DNA of 64,000 nucleotides, taken from assembly GCA_903642325.1 (NCBI GenBank), contig CAHJWM010000030.1, positions 1 through 64,000 of the forward strand. The letters run 5' to 3'. The notes beneath the pieces were generated by a model. The model worked only from the letters and a program-made list of their open reading frames with translations. It made no database searches and was not told where the DNA came from. The position numbers were made by a program, and so were the translations under genes. This DNA is from Myxococcales bacterium (lineage in GTDB: Bacteria; Myxococcota_A; Polyangia; Polyangiales; Polyangiaceae). Shown here one piece after another: positions 7,144 through 13,695 of this stretch. Each line of letters starts with the position of its first letter. Positions within the stretch are counted from its first letter, which is position 1.

Positions 7144-7815
7144 GTGTACCCCGGGCAGGACAAGCTACTGCGAGTCACTACCGGTGACCACGGGCCACTC
7201 GTGGTGCTTCTGCATGGCTTTGCCGGCGGTCCCGAGGATTTGGAGCCATTCGCTCGGTCGATGGGCGTGCCGGGGCGGTTCATTTTTCCGAGCGGCTTCA
7301 TCGACCTGGCGGCTCATGGTCGGCCGGGGCGAGCGTGGTGGCCAAGCGACGGCTCGGCGCGCGAACAGGCAATGCGTGACGGCGCGGCCCGCGACCTGTC
7401 TGACTTCGAACCGCCAGGGCTTGGCTTTGCGCGCGACGAGCTGAATGCGTTGCTCGATGCGCTATCGGCCGAAGCAGGACCAAGCCCGCTAATTTTAGGC
7501 GGATTTTCGCAAGGAGCCATGCTCGCTTTCGATCTCGCGCTCAACAGTCGGCGAGCCCTGTCGGCCGTTGTGCAGCTCTCGGGTGCCCGCATCGCCCAGC
7601 GGCGGTGGAACCCACTGCTCGTGCGGCGAGCGGGCACGCGCGCGTTCATCAGTCATGGTCGCAGTGACCCGGACCTGGCATTTTCAGCCGCCACACGCTT
7701 TGGTGCAGATCTGCGGACCGCGGGCTGGGGGCTCGAGTTCTGTGCGTTCGACGGCGGACATGAGGTGCCACTCGTGGCGTTGCGCGCGCTGAAACGGTTT
7801 TTGCTCAGCTTGTGA
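7144..7815 (+). CDS. Small carboxylesterase/phospholipase-type alpha/beta hydrolase
   Basis: Single-domain serine hydrolase of 223 residues. It has the oxyanion strand VLLHGFAGGPEDL, the nucleophile elbow GGFSQGAM (Ser122), an Asp in SHGRSDPD and a His in GGHEVP, all arranged as in the phospholipase/carboxylesterase (YpfH/EstB-like) family. There is no signal peptide, so it is probably cytoplasmic. The start is GTG at 7144; an in-frame stop at 7135-7137 excludes a longer form. It follows the methyltransferase by 91 bp in the same direction and is convergent with the GH2 gene, whose stop lies 6 bp away. The natural substrate is unknown. Confidence 0.85.
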   Translation: MYPGQDKLLRVTTGDHGPLVVLLHGFAGGPEDLEPFARSMGVPGRFIFPSGFIDLAAHGRPGRAWWPSDGSAREQAMRDGAARDLSDFEPPGLGFARDELNALLDALSAEAGPSPLILGGFSQGAMLAFDLALNSRRALSAVVQLSGARIAQRRWNPLLVRRAGTRAFISHGRSDPDLAFSAATRFGADLRTAGWGLEFCAFDGGHEVPLVALRALKRFLLSL

Positions 7816-7832
7816 CGGCCCTAGCCGGCCGT
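7815..7832. terminator. Short hairpin between convergent genes
   Basis: A six-base perfect stem (ACGGCC / GGCCGT) with a six-base loop lies between the esterase stop and the GH2 stop, overlapping both gene ends. There is no T-run, so its role as a bidirectional terminator is only a suggestion. Confidence 0.25.
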
Positions 7833-10349
7833 GATGGAAACTCGCGTCGGGCCCTGGGCGTTCAACGCGCGCACGAACCCGCGGGGCGTGGCGCCGGGGA
7901 CCTCGGCCCGGAGCTGCAGACTGCGTTCCACCCCGGGGCGGAGGTCGAAATAGGCGTCTTCGGCCAAAAATCCGGGGATATCCAAAGCCACGGCATGAGC
8001 GAACTTTGCGCTCTGTAAACACAAACGCCATTGGTCGCCTTCAGCGGGCTCGACCTTTGCCTGTAGCCCGATATCGTCGACCGTGCTCGGCAATAGCCCC
8101 CCGGGAAAGTAGCTGGCTTCCGAGATCACGTTTCCGTCACTCGCATCGCGCAGCGACGCACAGACCACGTCGAACTGCCGCGGCCCAAACCGGTACGCGT
8201 GCGTCAAGTCGATGAAGTGCTCGAAGAGCGCAGACGCTTGCAGCTCGAGCGCACCTCGCGCCGGAATTTCCAACGCAGCTTTGGCGGTTGCCACCGCCGT
8301 CGAGCCATTGCGATACACGCGCAGCTCGAGCTCCGCCGAAAGCGACCGATCACGCTCGTTGAGCGCGTTGACGAAGAGACCATTCAAGCCCTCGTCCAAA
8401 AGGAATATTGCCTGAGCCTGCATGGCGCGCTTAACGTAATAATAAGCCGCCTTCGGCAAGCCATGTGCGTCGATCAGGCCCCAGCCGGCGCCAGGCCAGA
8501 GGTCACGCAAAAACCAAATCAATGCGCCGCGGCAGCCCGAAGCCGGACGCCGCCACTCCGCGATCGTGCGCGCCATGACTTCACCGCTGGTCACTCGCCC
8601 GAGCGCAAGCGCCCGTTCTTGATCTTCATAGCGGAGCGCCACCGGGTCGATGCCGAAGAGCAGCTTCGTGTAGTGATCGCGCACATCATCGAAGTCCCAG
8701 CCCGGGCCGCTGTCGCGCGGAACGCGCGCTTTCCAGCGTGGATCGTGAAAGGGTGCGCGCCCGTCACCGAGCAAGCGCTCGATTGTCGAAGCCTCCGGAA
8801 TATTGGCAAAGCCGAGACATTCGGGGGTGAATTTCACCCCTGAGTGCCGCGCGTCGGTGAGCGGGCGGAGGTACGCGCCCACCCCGTAGTAATGCGTCAG
8901 GCCCGCGTCGGCTTGAAACGGCAGCGTGCCGCCGGTCGGCGTGGAGGCCACATAGGGCACGTCAGCGCGACGAGCGACCACCGCGTCGCGCAGCAGAGCT
9001 TCGAAGAGTGAAGACCTCCAAGCCTCGCGCGGCAGGCCCAGCATGGCAGCTTGCTGCTCCACCTCGCTATTTCCACACAGCACGGCCAAGCAAGCACGCG
9101 TTTCGGTGCGCGCTAAAAACTGTTCGGCTTCCCGCTGCACGCTGTCCGCAAAGACGGGATCATCGGCCGGATAATCGCAGTTCGCAAACATGAAATCTTG
9201 CCAGACCAGGACGCCGAGACGATCGCAGGCTTCGTAGAAGGCATCCGATTCGTAAATCATGGTGCCGCCGATGCGCAGCATGTTCATGCCCGCGGCGCTC
9301 GCTTGCTCGACAGTGCGTACCGTCGTTTCATCGTCATTGAGCGACACGACGTCGGTCGGAGCCCAGCAGGCACCGCGGCAGCGCGTTTCCACTCCGTTCA
9401 CGAGCAACGCAAAACGCCCGGCCTCGGTTTGGGTCTCGATGCGGCGAAAGGCAACCGCGTCGAAAGTGAGCTCGTAGCTCTGGCCGGCGACTCGGAAGGC
9501 GATCCGAACCGGGTAGCGCGGCTGAGACCCCGAGCCGTTCGGCCACCAAAGGTCCGCGCCTTCGAGCTCGAGCTCGGCGTCGAGGGTGAGAGTCGTGCCC
9601 TCGGCCATGCGGCGCAGCGGGATCGAGCTCGAGCCGACGTGCAGCGTCGCCGACTCCAGATTCGCGCCGAGGGTTTCCGCTTCCACGTGTGCGCGCAACG
9701 ATTTCCGTTCGCCCACGACGCGAGCGCAGAGCTCGGCGCGGCGCACGGAGAGGTGCCGCCGCCGTTGCAAGCGCACGCCTCGCCACGGGCCGACTGCCGT
9801 GACCGGCGGCGTCCAACCGGGAATGCGGCCAAGCAACGTGGTCCGGAACCAGCGCAGCTGTTGGCGCTCGATGAGCCGCGTTTTGAAACGGGGCCGCGGC
9901 CGGCGGGCGGAGGTCGCGACGTCGAGGGAAGCGAAGCGAATGTGGAGCTCGTTCTCGTGGCCGATCAAAGAGGACACGTCGAGCTCGTGTGCCAAGAACA
10001 TATTCTCGGAACGCAGTACATGCACCCCGTTCAGCCACACGTCGGCCAACGTGGCCAGCCCGTCCAGCCCGAGCCAGAGCGCTTCATCGGCAGCGCACGG
10101 CGCGCTTGCGAAACGCACCCGGTACCACCACTCGCAGGCATCGAACGCGCGCGTACTGGACCAATCCCAGGCCTTGCGTGCCCGAAATGCGCTGGCCACC
10201 GTGCCTGGGCAGTGCGCAACGAGCCACTCTTGTAGCGGCCCGAGCTCGGCGGGGGAAGCGAGCGTGGTGCCCTGCGCGACCTCCGTCAGCTGCCAATGGG
10301 CGACGAGCGGTTCGACTCCGTAGTTCGTCGCAGTACGGACTCGCGCCAT
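7821..10349 (-). CDS. Glycoside hydrolase family 2, beta-mannosidase-like
   Basis: 842 residues with GH2 architecture: N-terminal jelly-roll sugar-binding domain (about 1-190), immunoglobulin-like domain (about 190-300), a TIM-barrel catalytic domain containing LVWQDFMFANCDYP, and C-terminal beta domains. The likely acid/base is Glu429 (CGNSEVEQ, matching the GN-x-E motif of beta-mannosidases) and the likely nucleophile Glu510 (FTPECLGF). It has no signal peptide, so it would act in the cytoplasm. It is the last gene of the minus-strand aminoacyl-carrier-protein operon, 14 bp after the DUF1839 gene. This suggests that the operon handles a mannoside-containing or related glycoconjugate, but the substrate is inferred only from family resemblance; other GH2 exo-activities are possible. 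Confidence 0.85.
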   Translation of the reverse strand: MARVRTATNYGVEPLVAHWQLTEVAQGTTLASPAELGPLQEWLVAHCPGTVASAFRARKAWDWSSTRAFDACEWWYRVRFASAPCAADEALWLGLDGLATLADVWLNGVHVLRSENMFLAHELDVSSLIGHENELHIRFASLDVATSARRPRPRFKTRLIERQQLRWFRTTLLGRIPGWTPPVTAVGPWRGVRLQRRRHLSVRRAELCARVVGERKSLRAHVEAETLGANLESATLHVGSSSIPLRRMAEGTTLTLDAELELEGADLWWPNGSGSQPRYPVRIAFRVAGQSYELTFDAVAFRRIETQTEAGRFALLVNGVETRCRGACWAPTDVVSLNDDETTVRTVEQASAAGMNMLRIGGTMIYESDAFYEACDRLGVLVWQDFMFANCDYPADDPVFADSVQREAEQFLARTETRACLAVLCGNSEVEQQAAMLGLPREAWRSSLFEALLRDAVVARRADVPYVASTPTGGTLPFQADAGLTHYYGVGAYLRPLTDARHSGVKFTPECLGFANIPEASTIERLLGDGRAPFHDPRWKARVPRDSGPGWDFDDVRDHYTKLLFGIDPVALRYEDQERALALGRVTSGEVMARTIAEWRRPASGCRGALIWFLRDLWPGAGWGLIDAHGLPKAAYYYVKRAMQAQAIFLLDEGLNGLFVNALNERDRSLSAELELRVYRNGSTAVATAKAALEIPARGALELQASALFEHFIDLTHAYRFGPRQFDVVCASLRDASDGNVISEASYFPGGLLPSTVDDIGLQAKVEPAEGDQWRLCLQSAKFAHAVALDIPGFLAEDAYFDLRPGVERSLQLRAEVPGATPRGFVRALNAQGPTRVSITAG

Positions 10350-10363
10350 TGCTCCGCCCCGTC

Positions 10364-11347
10364 CTACGCGATCGCGTCGAGGGCGGCCATGGCGGCGTCC
10401 CAGTGCTTGGCCATGTCTTCGAACGCGGGCTCTAGATCGACCGGCTTCTTCGAGCTAGCCGCGCGCGCGCCTTTGAGGATCAGCGCTTTCGCGCCATGAG
10501 AGATTTCCTCGAACGAGCGAGCTGCTGACTCGTAGCCTTTGGGCGCCCGCTCTTCCAACCAACGCAGGTAGGCGGCGCTGAGCTCGTAGCCCGAGCCGAC
10601 TTGGCGCGTCGTCGCAAATGCAAAGGCGTGGTAAAAGCCGATGCCCCGGGCGCGAATGTGCTCGAGCTCCTCGGAAAAATGCCGGCCGAAGCGGCGCAGG
10701 GGGTTGCTCGCGGGCCGGCGCTCGAGCCAGCTGCGGAGCTGCGTTCGAGAGCGCGCAGCAAGCTCCGCGTCCGGCAAACGCTCCGCGCGGTCGAGCTTCA
10801 CGAGCTCGGCGAAGAGCGGCATGAACGTCGGATCCGGCGCTGAGCCGAGCCGGAACGTCTGCACGAAATCTTCGCCTTCGAGCCTGAAGTAGCCGGCATT
10901 GTGAAAGTAGCCGAGCCGCTTGGCTTCGATGTCGATGGACTCGATGGCGATCGTACTCTTCGTATGCTGCGTACGGTAATCGGTGCCCGCGGTGTCCGGT
11001 AACCAGAAGGCGTCCGCTTCCGTGAACACCAGCCGGCCGTGGCTCGTGTGGAACAAGGCATGCTCGAGGAGCGGCTTCCAAACGTTGAGCTCTTGCACGG
11101 TGATGCCGTACAGAACGCTCAGGTCGACGTGCGGCGGCTTGTAAAATGTCCACTGATCGCCGTCGAAGTCGCTCGCGACGGTGAAGGCCAAGCTTGCCGT
11201 GGGGTCGAGCTTGGCGGAGTGCAATACCTCGAGCCAGACGTCGATGTAGCAATTCTTCTCTATCCAGGCGCGCGACTCCGCGTGCAGCGCATGGCGCTGA
11301 TAGGTGGCTGCGTCCAACCCCCAAACCGAGCTTTTGCTCAAGGCCAC
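10364..11347 (-). CDS. DUF1839 family protein of the aminoacyl-carrier-protein operon
   Basis: About 327 residues resembling the DUF1839 family, which I know from neighbourhoods of amino acid:[carrier protein] ligases. Conserved-looking blocks are WGLDAATYQRHALH near the N terminus, NCYIDVWLEVLH, and DFDGDQWTFYKPP. No catalytic residues can be assigned and there are no signal peptide or membrane segments. A longer open frame (to 11524) lies mostly over the ligase gene and is not family-like. I chose the GTG at 11347; a TTG at 11341 overlaps the ligase stop (TTGA) and is equally possible. Either start implies translational coupling. A role as acceptor enzyme or transferase for the aminoacyl group is speculation. 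Confidence 0.75.
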   Translation of the reverse strand: MALSKSSVWGLDAATYQRHALHAESRAWIEKNCYIDVWLEVLHSAKLDPTASLAFTVASDFDGDQWTFYKPPHVDLSVLYGITVQELNVWKPLLEHALFHTSHGRLVFTEADAFWLPDTAGTDYRTQHTKSTIAIESIDIEAKRLGYFHNAGYFRLEGEDFVQTFRLGSAPDPTFMPLFAELVKLDRAERLPDAELAARSRTQLRSWLERRPASNPLRRFGRHFSEELEHIRARGIGFYHAFAFATTRQVGSGYELSAAYLRWLEERAPKGYESAARSFEEISHGAKALILKGARAASSKKPVDLEPAFEDMAKHWDAAMAALDAIA

Positions 11348-12249
11348 AGCTGTTCGCGCACGTGCTTCGGCCACTCCGTAGGGACGAAGCCGTGCGTCCG
11401 GAAGAGGGCCATCACTACGCGTTCCATGCCGAAGCCGAGGCAGGCGGTTTGAGCAATGGCCCCGTCCGGCGTGTTGATCTCGAAGATCTTGCCGAAGTGC
11501 TCTTGGTGATAGTTGAAAGAGCAAACCGCGGTGGGCTTATCCTCGGAGATCACCGGGACGAGGACTTCGAATTTGAGCTTCTGCTCTTTCTGGCTGGCGG
11601 CGAGCATGCGCCCACCACGCCCGAAGAACGGGTCGGCCGCTACATCCGACTTGGCGGGCAGACCGAGTGACGAAAGCAGCTCGACGCCGCGCGCGAGCCA
11701 CATGTTGCGCCAATCGATCACGGCATCCGGCGAGCCCACGCGTACGAACTCGCGCACGCGGAATGCCTGCATGCGAGTCGGCTCGGGCGAGGGCTCGTGC
11801 CGGAACACCCAATTTTGCATGTCCACCAAGCGGCCCTCCGCCGGAACGGTCCCGGTAAAGCTCGGGTACACTGGGTAACACGCGGCTGGCGTGAGCACCA
11901 CGCCGGTCATCTTTTGCAGGTCCTCCCACGGCTTCTTGTCATGGATCCGTTGGCTCAGTTCTTTGTGTTGGAGATCGGTGCCGTAAAACGAAAATACGGT
12001 GCCCGCCAACTGGGGGAACGAATCCAAGTATTCGCTCTTCTCGAACACCTGCCGATCGAGAATGGGTGGGAACGCCATCACTTCCGCGCCGTCATTCTTG
12101 GCTAGGCGGGTCACCAAGTCATTGAAACGTGCGAGCACGTCCTCGAACACCGCGCCTCGGCCGAACGCGCCCGGCACGCCCACGGGGATAATCAGCTTAT
12201 GCCGGACGAGCTCGTCGTAAAGGTCTTGAGAGGAGTAGGTGATTGCCAT
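11338..12249 (-). CDS. Amino acid:[carrier protein] ligase (atypical SerRS-like class II synthetase)
   Basis: 303 residues matching the truncated seryl-tRNA-synthetase homologues that lack the tRNA-binding arm. These activate a small amino acid (Gly or Ala in characterised members) with ATP and load it onto the phosphopantetheine of a dedicated carrier protein rather than tRNA. Visible features are the class II motif 2 region (FRVREFVRVG), motif 3 GFGMER, and candidate zinc ligands Cys124, Glu167 and Cys270, at spacings like those I recall for the Bradyrhizobium enzyme. The start ATG at 12249 lies 3 bp after the dehydrogenase stop, with AAGGA upstream inside that gene. The carrier-protein gene lies two genes upstream, which strongly supports the assignment. 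Amino-acid specificity is not readable by eye. Confidence 0.9.
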   Translation of the reverse strand: MAITYSSQDLYDELVRHKLIIPVGVPGAFGRGAVFEDVLARFNDLVTRLAKNDGAEVMAFPPILDRQVFEKSEYLDSFPQLAGTVFSFYGTDLQHKELSQRIHDKKPWEDLQKMTGVVLTPAACYPVYPSFTGTVPAEGRLVDMQNWVFRHEPSPEPTRMQAFRVREFVRVGSPDAVIDWRNMWLARGVELLSSLGLPAKSDVAADPFFGRGGRMLAASQKEQKLKFEVLVPVISEDKPTAVCSFNYHQEHFGKIFEINTPDGAIAQTACLGFGMERVVMALFRTHGFVPTEWPKHVREQLWP

Positions 12250-12252
12250 GGA

Positions 12253-13428
12253 TCAATCGTCCTTCAGCACGAGCAGCATGGAAGCGTTGGTCGCGTAAAT
12301 CCGATCATTGTTGACCATCAGCGCGGCCGACAGCGCGTCCCGCAGATAGAGGCCAATAGAAAACTTGGAGTCGTTTTTGTAACCCATGATGCCGCAGATC
12401 AAGAGGCAGCGCTGCACGATGTCGGCGAGCGTCGTGGATGTCGATACCTTCACGTTGTTCATCTTCAGCGCGAATGCGATCGACGACAATACCTCGGTCC
12501 CGGCGTCGGGCGCGCTCATCAGTTGTTCGCATTCCGCGGCGACGTCGTGCACGTTGGCTCGCAAGCTTTGCAACATGCCAGCTACCTCCGCCAAGCGGAG
12601 CGCGCTGGGCGGGGTCGTGCCCGGCTTGGCGCGCGCCGCGGAGCGCACGAACGCGCGAGCTTTGGAGACCGCCGCCGTCGCGATGCCCAGCCAACAATTG
12701 GCCCACAAAACGTGCGAGAACGGCACCATGGTGTGAGCCGCGATATCCGCAAACCCGGCTTCCAAGACCTGATCCATGCGGCCCGTCGAGCGCAGCTTGA
12801 ACGGCGGGCTACACGTGCCGCGCATACCGAGGGTGTCCCACACCCCGTTGACCTCCAGCGTGTAATCCGCCTTGCGCACCAAGACCAAGGATTGATCGTT
12901 GGCGGGCGCATCGGTGGAGCGGCGCGCCGTCACCAAGAGCTCGTCGGCGTGCGCTCCGTAGGAGATGGTCGTTGCGTCCTTGTCTAGCTTGAAGCGATCG
13001 CCTTGGGACTCCACGGCGCACACGCTGTTGCGCATCTCCCCGCCGACGCCGGCTTCCGAGGTGACCGATGCGATGAGGTTCTGCTTTTCTACGAGCTCGC
13101 TCAAAAAGTTGCGGAAGAAGCCCGAGCTCCCCGCGTGGCGAACGATACTGGCAACCTGGATTTGATGCATCGCAAACACCATTGCCGTGGACGAGCAGTG
13201 CTGGCCAAGCGCTTCGCACATCTGCGACAGCTCGATCATGCCGCAACCGAGCCCGCCCAGATCCTTCGGGACGAAGGCCGATAGCAGCCGAGCCTCCCTC
13301 AAAGCATCCAGCGCCTCCCGCGGGAAACGCGAGTCGCGATCGACACTCCGCGCATTCGGCGCGGCGACCTCCTTGCCGATCCGCTTGGCGGCGGTGACGT
13401 GACGTGACTCGCTGACATGGTTTGCCAC
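12253..13428 (-). CDS. Acyl-CoA-dehydrogenase-fold flavoprotein of the aminoacyl-CP operon
   Basis: 391 residues with the three-part acyl-CoA dehydrogenase fold: N-terminal helical domain (FVPKDLGGLGCGMIELSQM), middle beta domain, and C-terminal helical FAD domain. The usual C-terminal YEGT motif, which carries the catalytic Glu in medium-chain dehydrogenases, is replaced by LMVNNDRIYATN. In this it resembles flavin monooxygenase-like members of the superfamily (HpaH/DszC type) more than classic dehydrogenases. The start is GTG at 13428, preceded by GGAGAGGAG at good spacing. Position between carrier protein and ligase suggests that it acts on the carrier-bound amino acid or a product of it; this is inference. 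Confidence 0.85.
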   Translation of the reverse strand: MANHVSESRHVTAAKRIGKEVAAPNARSVDRDSRFPREALDALREARLLSAFVPKDLGGLGCGMIELSQMCEALGQHCSSTAMVFAMHQIQVASIVRHAGSSGFFRNFLSELVEKQNLIASVTSEAGVGGEMRNSVCAVESQGDRFKLDKDATTISYGAHADELLVTARRSTDAPANDQSLVLVRKADYTLEVNGVWDTLGMRGTCSPPFKLRSTGRMDQVLEAGFADIAAHTMVPFSHVLWANCWLGIATAAVSKARAFVRSAARAKPGTTPPSALRLAEVAGMLQSLRANVHDVAAECEQLMSAPDAGTEVLSSIAFALKMNNVKVSTSTTLADIVQRCLLICGIMGYKNDSKFSIGLYLRDALSAALMVNNDRIYATNASMLLVLKDD

Positions 13429-13452
13429 GATATCGACTCCTCTCCGGTAGGC

Positions 13453-13695
13453 TCAGGAACCGGTGGTCAGCTCCTCGATTGCCGCGCGAATCGAGGACAT
13501 GCTTTCGAAGACGCCGCGTTTCAACATTCGATCAGGGAATTCGATGTCGAACTTGCCCTCGAGCGCGAGCATGACGTTCACGCTCGCGTGAGACGTGAGA
13601 CCCGCTTGATACAAGTCGCTTTCTTCGCTGAGGCTCGCCGTATCCAGCGAAAGGCGCCCGTGTTCCTTCAGAATGTTGCGAATGTCTTCGATCAT
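13453..13695 (-). CDS. Acyl-carrier-type protein for aminoacyl groups
   Basis: 80-residue four-helix carrier protein. The phosphopantetheine site is Ser35 in AGLTSHAS, the motif seen in carrier proteins paired with amino acid:CP ligases. I prefer the ATG at 13695, preceded by AAGGGA nine bases upstream; an ATG at 13719 would add eight residues. It is the first gene of the five-gene minus-strand operon. It would be activated by a phosphopantetheinyl transferase encoded elsewhere and then charged by the ligase at 11338-12249. The 4'-phosphopantetheine and the loaded amino acid are inferred from the family, not observed. Confidence 0.9.
   Translation of the reverse strand: MIEDIRNILKEHGRLSLDTASLSEESDLYQAGLTSHASVNVMLALEGKFDIEFPDRMLKRGVFESMSSIRAAIEELTTGS

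Follow-up and report, generated by a model that had tools for sequence, protein, structure and literature searches.

The window (the whole 64,000-nucleotide stretch analysed, part of contig C30 of a 5.8-Mb genome) carries five genes on its minus strand, from 13719 to 7821, encoding a carrier protein (CP), an ACAD-fold flavoprotein, a SerRS-like ligase, a DUF1839 protein and a GH2 enzyme (Table 1). The first-pass annotation had described a minus-strand cluster of this composition, with gaps or overlaps of -10 to +24 bp. All five genes lie where it placed them, their families are confirmed by Pfam and NCBIfam, and the spacings measured from CP through ACAD, ligase and DUF1839 to GH2 are +24, +3, -10 and +14 bp. 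For the DUF1839 gene, the GTG-initiated form is preferred; a longer form with a TTG start was discarded as an over-extension. Sequence comparison places the closest named relatives of this DUF1839 protein in Polyangiaceae.

Table 1. Genes and residues of the five-gene cluster and of the adjoining hydrolase gene (positions in the window).
Feature	Position	Strand	Family or remark
Aminoacyl carrier protein (CP), stand-alone, 88 aa	13453..13719	-	NF005480
CP phosphopantetheine Ser43 (motif AGLTSHAS)	13591-13593	-	Conserved in homologues
ACAD-fold flavoprotein, 391 aa, GTG start, without canonical catalytic Glu	12253..13428	-	PF02771
SerRS-like amino acid:[carrier protein] ligase, 303 aa, catalytic core only	11338..12249	-	NF005479
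DUF1839 protein, 327 aa, GTG start, predicted BtrH/CcbD-like cysteine acyltransferase fold (model)	10364..11347	-	PF08893
DUF1839 Cys33	11249-11251
DUF1839 His128	10964-10966
DUF1839 Thr132	10952-10954
DUF1839 His149	10901-10903
GH2 beta-mannosidase-like enzyme, 842 aa	7821..10349	-	PF22666
GH2 acid/base Glu429	9063-9065
GH2 nucleophile Glu510	8820-8822
Alpha/beta-hydrolase (phospholipase/carboxylesterase family), convergent with GH2, optional accessory	7144..7815	+	PF02230, 49.6 bits

The ligase belongs to NF005479, a family that NCBI names 'amino acid--[acyl-carrier-protein] ligase' (422.6 bits, cut-off 357), and it matches Bll0957 of Bradyrhizobium (PDB 3mey) with an E-value of 3.4e-73. Its residues C124, E167 and C270, kept in 76/76 homologues, align with the zinc-ligand positions of Bll0957, which we take to be the Cys/Glu/Cys of the catalytic core. 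The protein has no tRNA-binding domain: residues 111-300 align to positions 306-508 of a type-2 SerRS of 527 residues, that is, to the core only. The CP is likewise a member of its family (NF005480, 101.9 bits, cut-off 72), matches both the aminoacyl carrier protein of 4h2w (chain C) and Atu2571 (2jq4), and has its Ser43 in 71/71 homologues. Structures and in vitro activity of amino acid:carrier protein ligases have been known since 2010; the enzymes of Bradyrhizobium and Agrobacterium were reportedly described by Mocibob and colleagues in 2010 and 2013. These relatives charge Gly, Ala or Ser, and their biological role 'remains unknown' (PMC9437257). The window thus shares with Bll0957-type systems the ligase family, the cognate CP family and the zinc-ligand positions, but whereas published work ends at the charged CP, the genes described here would supply a downstream pathway.

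The first-pass annotation had made its claim depend on the co-occurrence and order of the genes in related genomes, and when this comparison was run, the genes were found to travel together. Among 290 genomes of the same class, 31 encode a ligase above the cut-off, 29 a DUF1839 protein and 28 both (Fisher p = 1.7e-34 over the 290 genomes, phylogeny being ignored), and the single genome with DUF1839 but a ligase below the cut-off has a ligase fragment truncated at a contig end. Scanning GTDB genomes added 80 loci, which come from Myxococcota, Alpha-, Beta- and Gammaproteobacteria, Acidobacteriota, Planctomycetes and Actinobacteria (taxonomy taken from record titles and plasmid records). The 83 loci compared span at least five phyla; ACAD, ligase and DUF1839 genes are contiguous in 72 of them, GH2 is present in 76 and CP in 70. 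Three arrangements recur: the colinear order CP-ACAD-ligase-DUF1839-GH2 (27/83), a GH2-CP pair divergent from ACAD-ligase-DUF1839 (23/83) and CP-GH2 located downstream (11/83). Identical five-gene order is also found on plasmids of Rhizobium, Azospirillum, Shinella and Caballeronia. In the 48 loci covered by at least 6.5 kb on both sides, ligase was found in 46, CP in 47, ACAD in 46 and GH2 in 47, together with two genes that do not adjoin the window cluster, encoding a twin alpha/beta-hydrolase (39 loci) and a holo-ACP synthase (34 loci). Distances within the different families are correlated (r 0.62-0.84, species phylogeny not being controlled), which is compatible with joint inheritance. 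Since the gene order recurs across phyla, the clustering is not due to chance; the cluster is real and more strongly conserved than is apparent from the window alone.

The flavoprotein belongs to the ACAD fold family (PF02771, 56.6 bits, cut-off 22.9; PF00441 above and PF02770 below their cut-offs), but it is distant from the characterised families, the best match being FadE16-like, at 119.9 bits against a cut-off of 600. The catalytic Glu of canonical acyl-CoA dehydrogenases is absent from either known position, as seen in the window protein and its aligned homologues. At the usual site, YEGT is replaced by V/I-N-NDRI, in which V or I precedes a conserved N-D-R motif, whereas four canonical ACAD paralogues of the host genome have [Y/G/F]EGT; the Glu position of the isovaleryl-CoA-dehydrogenase type is also replaced. 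The sequence relatives of the flavoprotein include the ACAD-fold oxygenases DnmZ, nitrososynthase and DszC. A glycyl group has no beta carbon, so that alpha,beta-dehydrogenation is impossible if the amino acid is glycine. Given this constraint and the missing canonical base, oxidation at C-alpha/N or N-oxygenation is favoured over alpha,beta-dehydrogenation, and in view of the residues and of these relatives, oxidation of the alpha-amino group or N-oxygenation would be as likely as dehydrogenation. The earlier suggestion that the amino acid is oxidised is plausible, yet unproven; the canonical dehydrogenase glutamate is lost from the flavoprotein.

The DUF1839 protein is a clear member of PF08893 (356.7 bits, cut-off 22.5). 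Searches of its profile against PDB sequences returned nothing up to E 1, so the fold link described here rests on a predicted model (AlphaFold2, from 26 sequences; pLDDT 92.6, pTM 0.91). In Foldseek, this model matched AziU3, CtaG and CcbD with E-values of 3.6e-6 to 2.4e-4. Alignment with VIA-align gave a Z-score of 18.3 with CcbD (281 residues, rmsd 3.5), 18.2 with AziU3 and 17.0 with CtaG, the next match scoring 7.6; the model thus has a BtrH_N-type fold, the three proteins aligning at Z 17-18 over 274-286 residues. BtrH and BtrH_N proteins (butirosin), CtaG (closthioamide) and AziU3 (azinomycin) share with the predicted structure the fold, a Cys that opens the first helix and a similar D..LP strand motif.

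At the sequence level, membership of DUF1839 in BtrH_N was tested and not found. The Pfam model of BtrH_N (PF14399) matched none of 26 DUF1839 members at E 10, and an hhalign comparison of the two families was not significant (probability 4%), the sole aligned segment being the D112-LP strand found in both. C33, D112, H128, K130 and H149 are present in 83/83 DUF1839 homologues, all 83 of which have T or S at position 132, whereas H127, H131 and D147 are invariant in BtrH_N proteins. In an alignment with BtrH_N and CtaG (not from coordinates), T/S132 falls at the canonical His position and H149 at the third position of the triad. A Cys-His-Asp/Glu triad in canonical positions was accordingly not found; Cys33 is present and the triad is rearranged. 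The catalytic set is more likely C33, T/S132 and H149, with H128 as the equivalent of the first BtrH_N His; H128 had been considered as the catalytic His and was dropped in view of the BtrH_N alignment and the published triad. This mapping agrees with a survey in which DUF1839 was assigned a papain-like fold and a C(T/S)H triad (PMC10318531). Since the triad is rearranged despite the invariant Cys, we liken DUF1839 to these enzymes and regard its membership of BtrH_N as unproven.

The closest of these structures provides a candidate reaction. In a ping-pong reaction via its catalytic Cys, CcbD condenses a CP-bound proline with the amino group of a thio-octose into an amide, and it also tolerates other acyl groups (PMC12945683). 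The lincosamide condensing enzymes CcbD and LmbD match the DUF1839 model over nearly the whole chain, and the likeness may extend to a CP-bound aminoacyl donor and a Cys nucleophile, a sugar amine being the acceptor expected for DUF1839. The differences are also clear: identity is about 12%, the order of the triad differs, and no ACAD or GH2 partner of the type found here is listed for lincosamide condensation. Moreover, the partner of CcbD is an NRPS adenylation domain (PMC4351081), whereas the DUF1839 cassette has an aaRS-like ligase. DUF1839 thus resembles enzymes of the CcbD/BtrH type in its modelled fold and probably in its chemistry. Alternatively, DUF1839 could be a cysteine hydrolase, a thioesterase or amidase that frees the oxidised amino acid from the CP as the end product of the pathway, GH2 having a different substrate. 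Most proteins with papain-like folds are hydrolases, the triad does not have the arrangement seen in CcbD, and the survey cited above guessed from gene context at an acyl-CoA-dependent role in glycan processing at the cell wall (PMC10318531). We nevertheless find such a hydrolase improbable: by a wide margin, the nearest structures are CP-dependent acyl-transferring enzymes, and GH2 is kept in 76 of the 83 loci and persists beside DUF1839 even where CP, ACAD and ligase genes are not found nearby.

These isolated pairs occur in Ramlibacter: at three loci (L045, L048 and L086), the available DNA has divergent DUF1839 and GH2 genes but none for ACAD, ligase or CP. Their persistence argues that DUF1839 and GH2 share a substrate. 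At L048, about 10 kb were covered on both sides and still contain no CP, ACAD or ligase gene, so that its DUF1839 and GH2 proteins would either have another substrate or depend on genes located elsewhere, which counts against the pathway proposed below.

The GH2 enzyme has the N-terminal domain PF22666 (77.8 bits, cut-off 27), and among solved structures it comes closest to the beta-mannosidases 5n6u (E 5.9e-56), 6bye and 2je8. Both catalytic glutamates are conserved (E429 in 69/71 and E510 in 71/71 homologues), and GH2 is therefore probably an active retaining glycosidase or transglycosylase. No signal peptide is apparent by inspection, and the enzyme is probably cytoplasmic. A glycosidase with intact catalytic residues could also serve a catabolic or salvage route, in which GH2 and DUF1839 degrade an aminoacylated glycan and the CP takes up the amino acid that is set free. 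This we judge very improbable, as GH2 has no visible signal peptide, no sugar importer recurs among the clustered neighbours of the cassette, and the ATP-dependent loading of a CP is unlike salvage routes, none of which, to our knowledge, uses it. The first-pass annotation had left both directions open, an amino acid transferred to a sugar or removed from it. Transfer is supported by the likeness of the DUF1839 model to CcbD and by the over-representation of polysaccharide genes described below, and removal is graded as less likely.

A first enrichment test had found polysaccharide genes in 6/20 locus regions and 0/20 control regions, using seeds that partly came from the same loci. For this reason, the test was redone with Pfam families and control regions from the same genomes. 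Among 125 proteins flanking 20 DUF1839 loci, we detected Poly_export (3), GT2 (3), Bac_transf (2), UDPG_MGDP_dh (2), Polysacc_deac (2) and Acyl_transf_3 (4), whereas none of these six families was listed twice or more among 125 control proteins from 20 regions. As polysaccharide genes are often near the cassette, we consider a surface polysaccharide, rather than a small glycoside, the likelier destination of the amino acid.

The twin alpha/beta-hydrolase points in the same direction. It fuses relatives of both exosortase-A-associated hydrolases, 1 and 2 (TIGR03100/03101), with scores below the cut-offs, and matches PF01738 and PF08840; a fold search returned only general alpha/beta-hydrolases. 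It differs from the exosortase-associated proteins in its active sites: in the N-terminal half, the nucleophile is replaced by Arg in 42/47 sequences and is never Ser, and the C-terminal half combines a Cys, present in 47/47, with a conserved Asp-His, as in Cys-type alpha/beta-hydrolase acyltransferases and dienelactone hydrolase. In Rhizobium NLR16a, a Wzx-like flippase is fused to this protein, and GT4 glycosyltransferases are encoded on either side. Neither the twin hydrolase nor a holo-ACP synthase was found adjoining the cassette of the window. A search of the whole host genome located a twin hydrolase, with a different phosphopantetheinyl transferase (PptT/EntD-like), on contig C13, in an exopolysaccharide locus whose other products include an FkbH protein, a hexapeptide acyltransferase with a fused CP, EpsD/EpsE-like glycosyltransferases and a Wzc-like protein.

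The same enzymes might instead make a small diffusible glycoside (an antibiotic, a signal or a symbiosis factor), as in the case of lincosamides, with DUF1839 coupling a free amino sugar with the amino acid carried by the CP, GH2 removing a protecting sugar and the polysaccharide neighbours being coincidental. All close structural relatives of DUF1839 come from antibiotic pathways, and no polysaccharide genes adjoin the cassette of the window, which lies outside any such locus. Several rhizobial and Caballeronia plasmid loci comprise the five core genes only, the cassette adjoining nifDKENX on a plasmid of R. gallicum and an ABC/RND-adaptor exporter in Caballeronia (the plasmid gene table being incomplete). 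Since several loci hold the five genes alone, a small glycoside has to be considered, but we hold it to be less likely in view of the enrichment of polysaccharide genes, the fusion of the twin hydrolase to a flippase in one species and the spread of the cassette over very diverse taxa, which would be unusual for one antibiotic.

We are moderately confident that the five genes form the core of a conserved CP-dependent pathway for linking a small, probably oxidised amino acid to a sugar amine. By analogy with its relatives, for which this step is known, the ligase would activate the amino acid with ATP and load it onto the phosphopantetheine arm of the CP. The flavoprotein would then oxidise the CP-bound aminoacyl group at C-alpha/N or N-oxygenate it, and Cys33 of DUF1839 would accept the acyl group and pass it to a sugar amine, as CcbD does. 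The constant linkage of GH2 and its intact glutamates suggest that it works on that sugar conjugate too, whether ahead of the transfer or following it. In many species, a dedicated holo-ACP synthase would arm the CP, and the twin hydrolase, with its Cys at the nucleophile position, would work with the system. A fuller scheme can be proposed, plausible but tentative, in which an aaRS-derived enzyme supplies an amino acid that is oxidised on the CP and delivered by DUF1839 to an amino sugar of an exported polysaccharide, in several phyla, with a cytoplasmic GH2 as a constant partner and the twin hydrolase (a dead half and a Cys acyltransferase half) as a frequent one.

The ligase, CP and GH2 are members of known families; what is new is that the modelled structure gives DUF1839 a specific candidate reaction. 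We rate the cassette as a probable system of CP-dependent aminoacyl transfer to amino sugars in which an aaRS-derived ligase replaces the NRPS adenylation domain. Amino acid:carrier protein ligases, which have hitherto lacked a known purpose (PMC9437257), are now tied to a fixed set of partners, and through the candidate reaction of DUF1839 the role of the charged CP becomes testable with purified enzymes. If true, sugars would here be decorated with aminoacyl groups by a new route, one of interest for bacteria that live in soil, with plants or as symbionts.

Finally, the alpha/beta-hydrolase encoded next to GH2 in the window has homologues in 17/83 loci; at two of these (L035 and L037), its gene also adjoins GH2 in convergent orientation.

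The two halves of the twin alpha/beta-hydrolase, an accessory protein encoded at many cassette loci, were compared across the L051 protein and 46 homologues: the expected nucleophile position is occupied by an arginine in the N-terminal half of 42 of these 47 proteins, and by an invariant cysteine in the C-terminal half (47/47). The host genome (G000) encodes a twin hydrolase in a second carrier protein (CP) module, together with an FkbH domain protein with a hexapeptide acyltransferase, an acyltransferase-CP fusion and a PptT-like transferase. This module is enclosed in an exopolysaccharide locus, suggesting that several CP-based modules for polysaccharide modification make use of the twin hydrolase.

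Features discussed in this section
Feature	Position	Remark
Twin alpha/beta-hydrolase	L051:13546-15372	46 homologues
Second CP module, host genome	L119:7832-13602	G000 contig C13, about 87.8-93.6 kb
Eco57I/TaqI-type DNA methylase gene	window:4947-7052	
GH44 protein	window:14137-15927	divergent from cassette

In Ramlibacter MAGs (loci L045, L048 and L086), DUF1839 and GH2 genes form divergent pairs, with no CP, ACAD or ligase gene in the available DNA. Ligase-like proteins of a second group, which do not reach the NF005479 cut-off (357 bits) and mostly score about 110-170 bits, are encoded in about 27 of the 290 class genomes, and nearly all of these genomes lack DUF1839; this group possibly corresponds to another SerRS-like ligase family.

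On plasmid pRgalR602b of Rhizobium gallicum R602sp (L179), nifDKENX-fdxB and a gene for a repressor of exopolysaccharide production lie directly upstream of the five-gene cassette, and an ACC deaminase gene follows it. No obvious restriction partner of the window's DNA methylase was seen in the part read, and the GH44 protein has a lipoprotein-like N-terminus.
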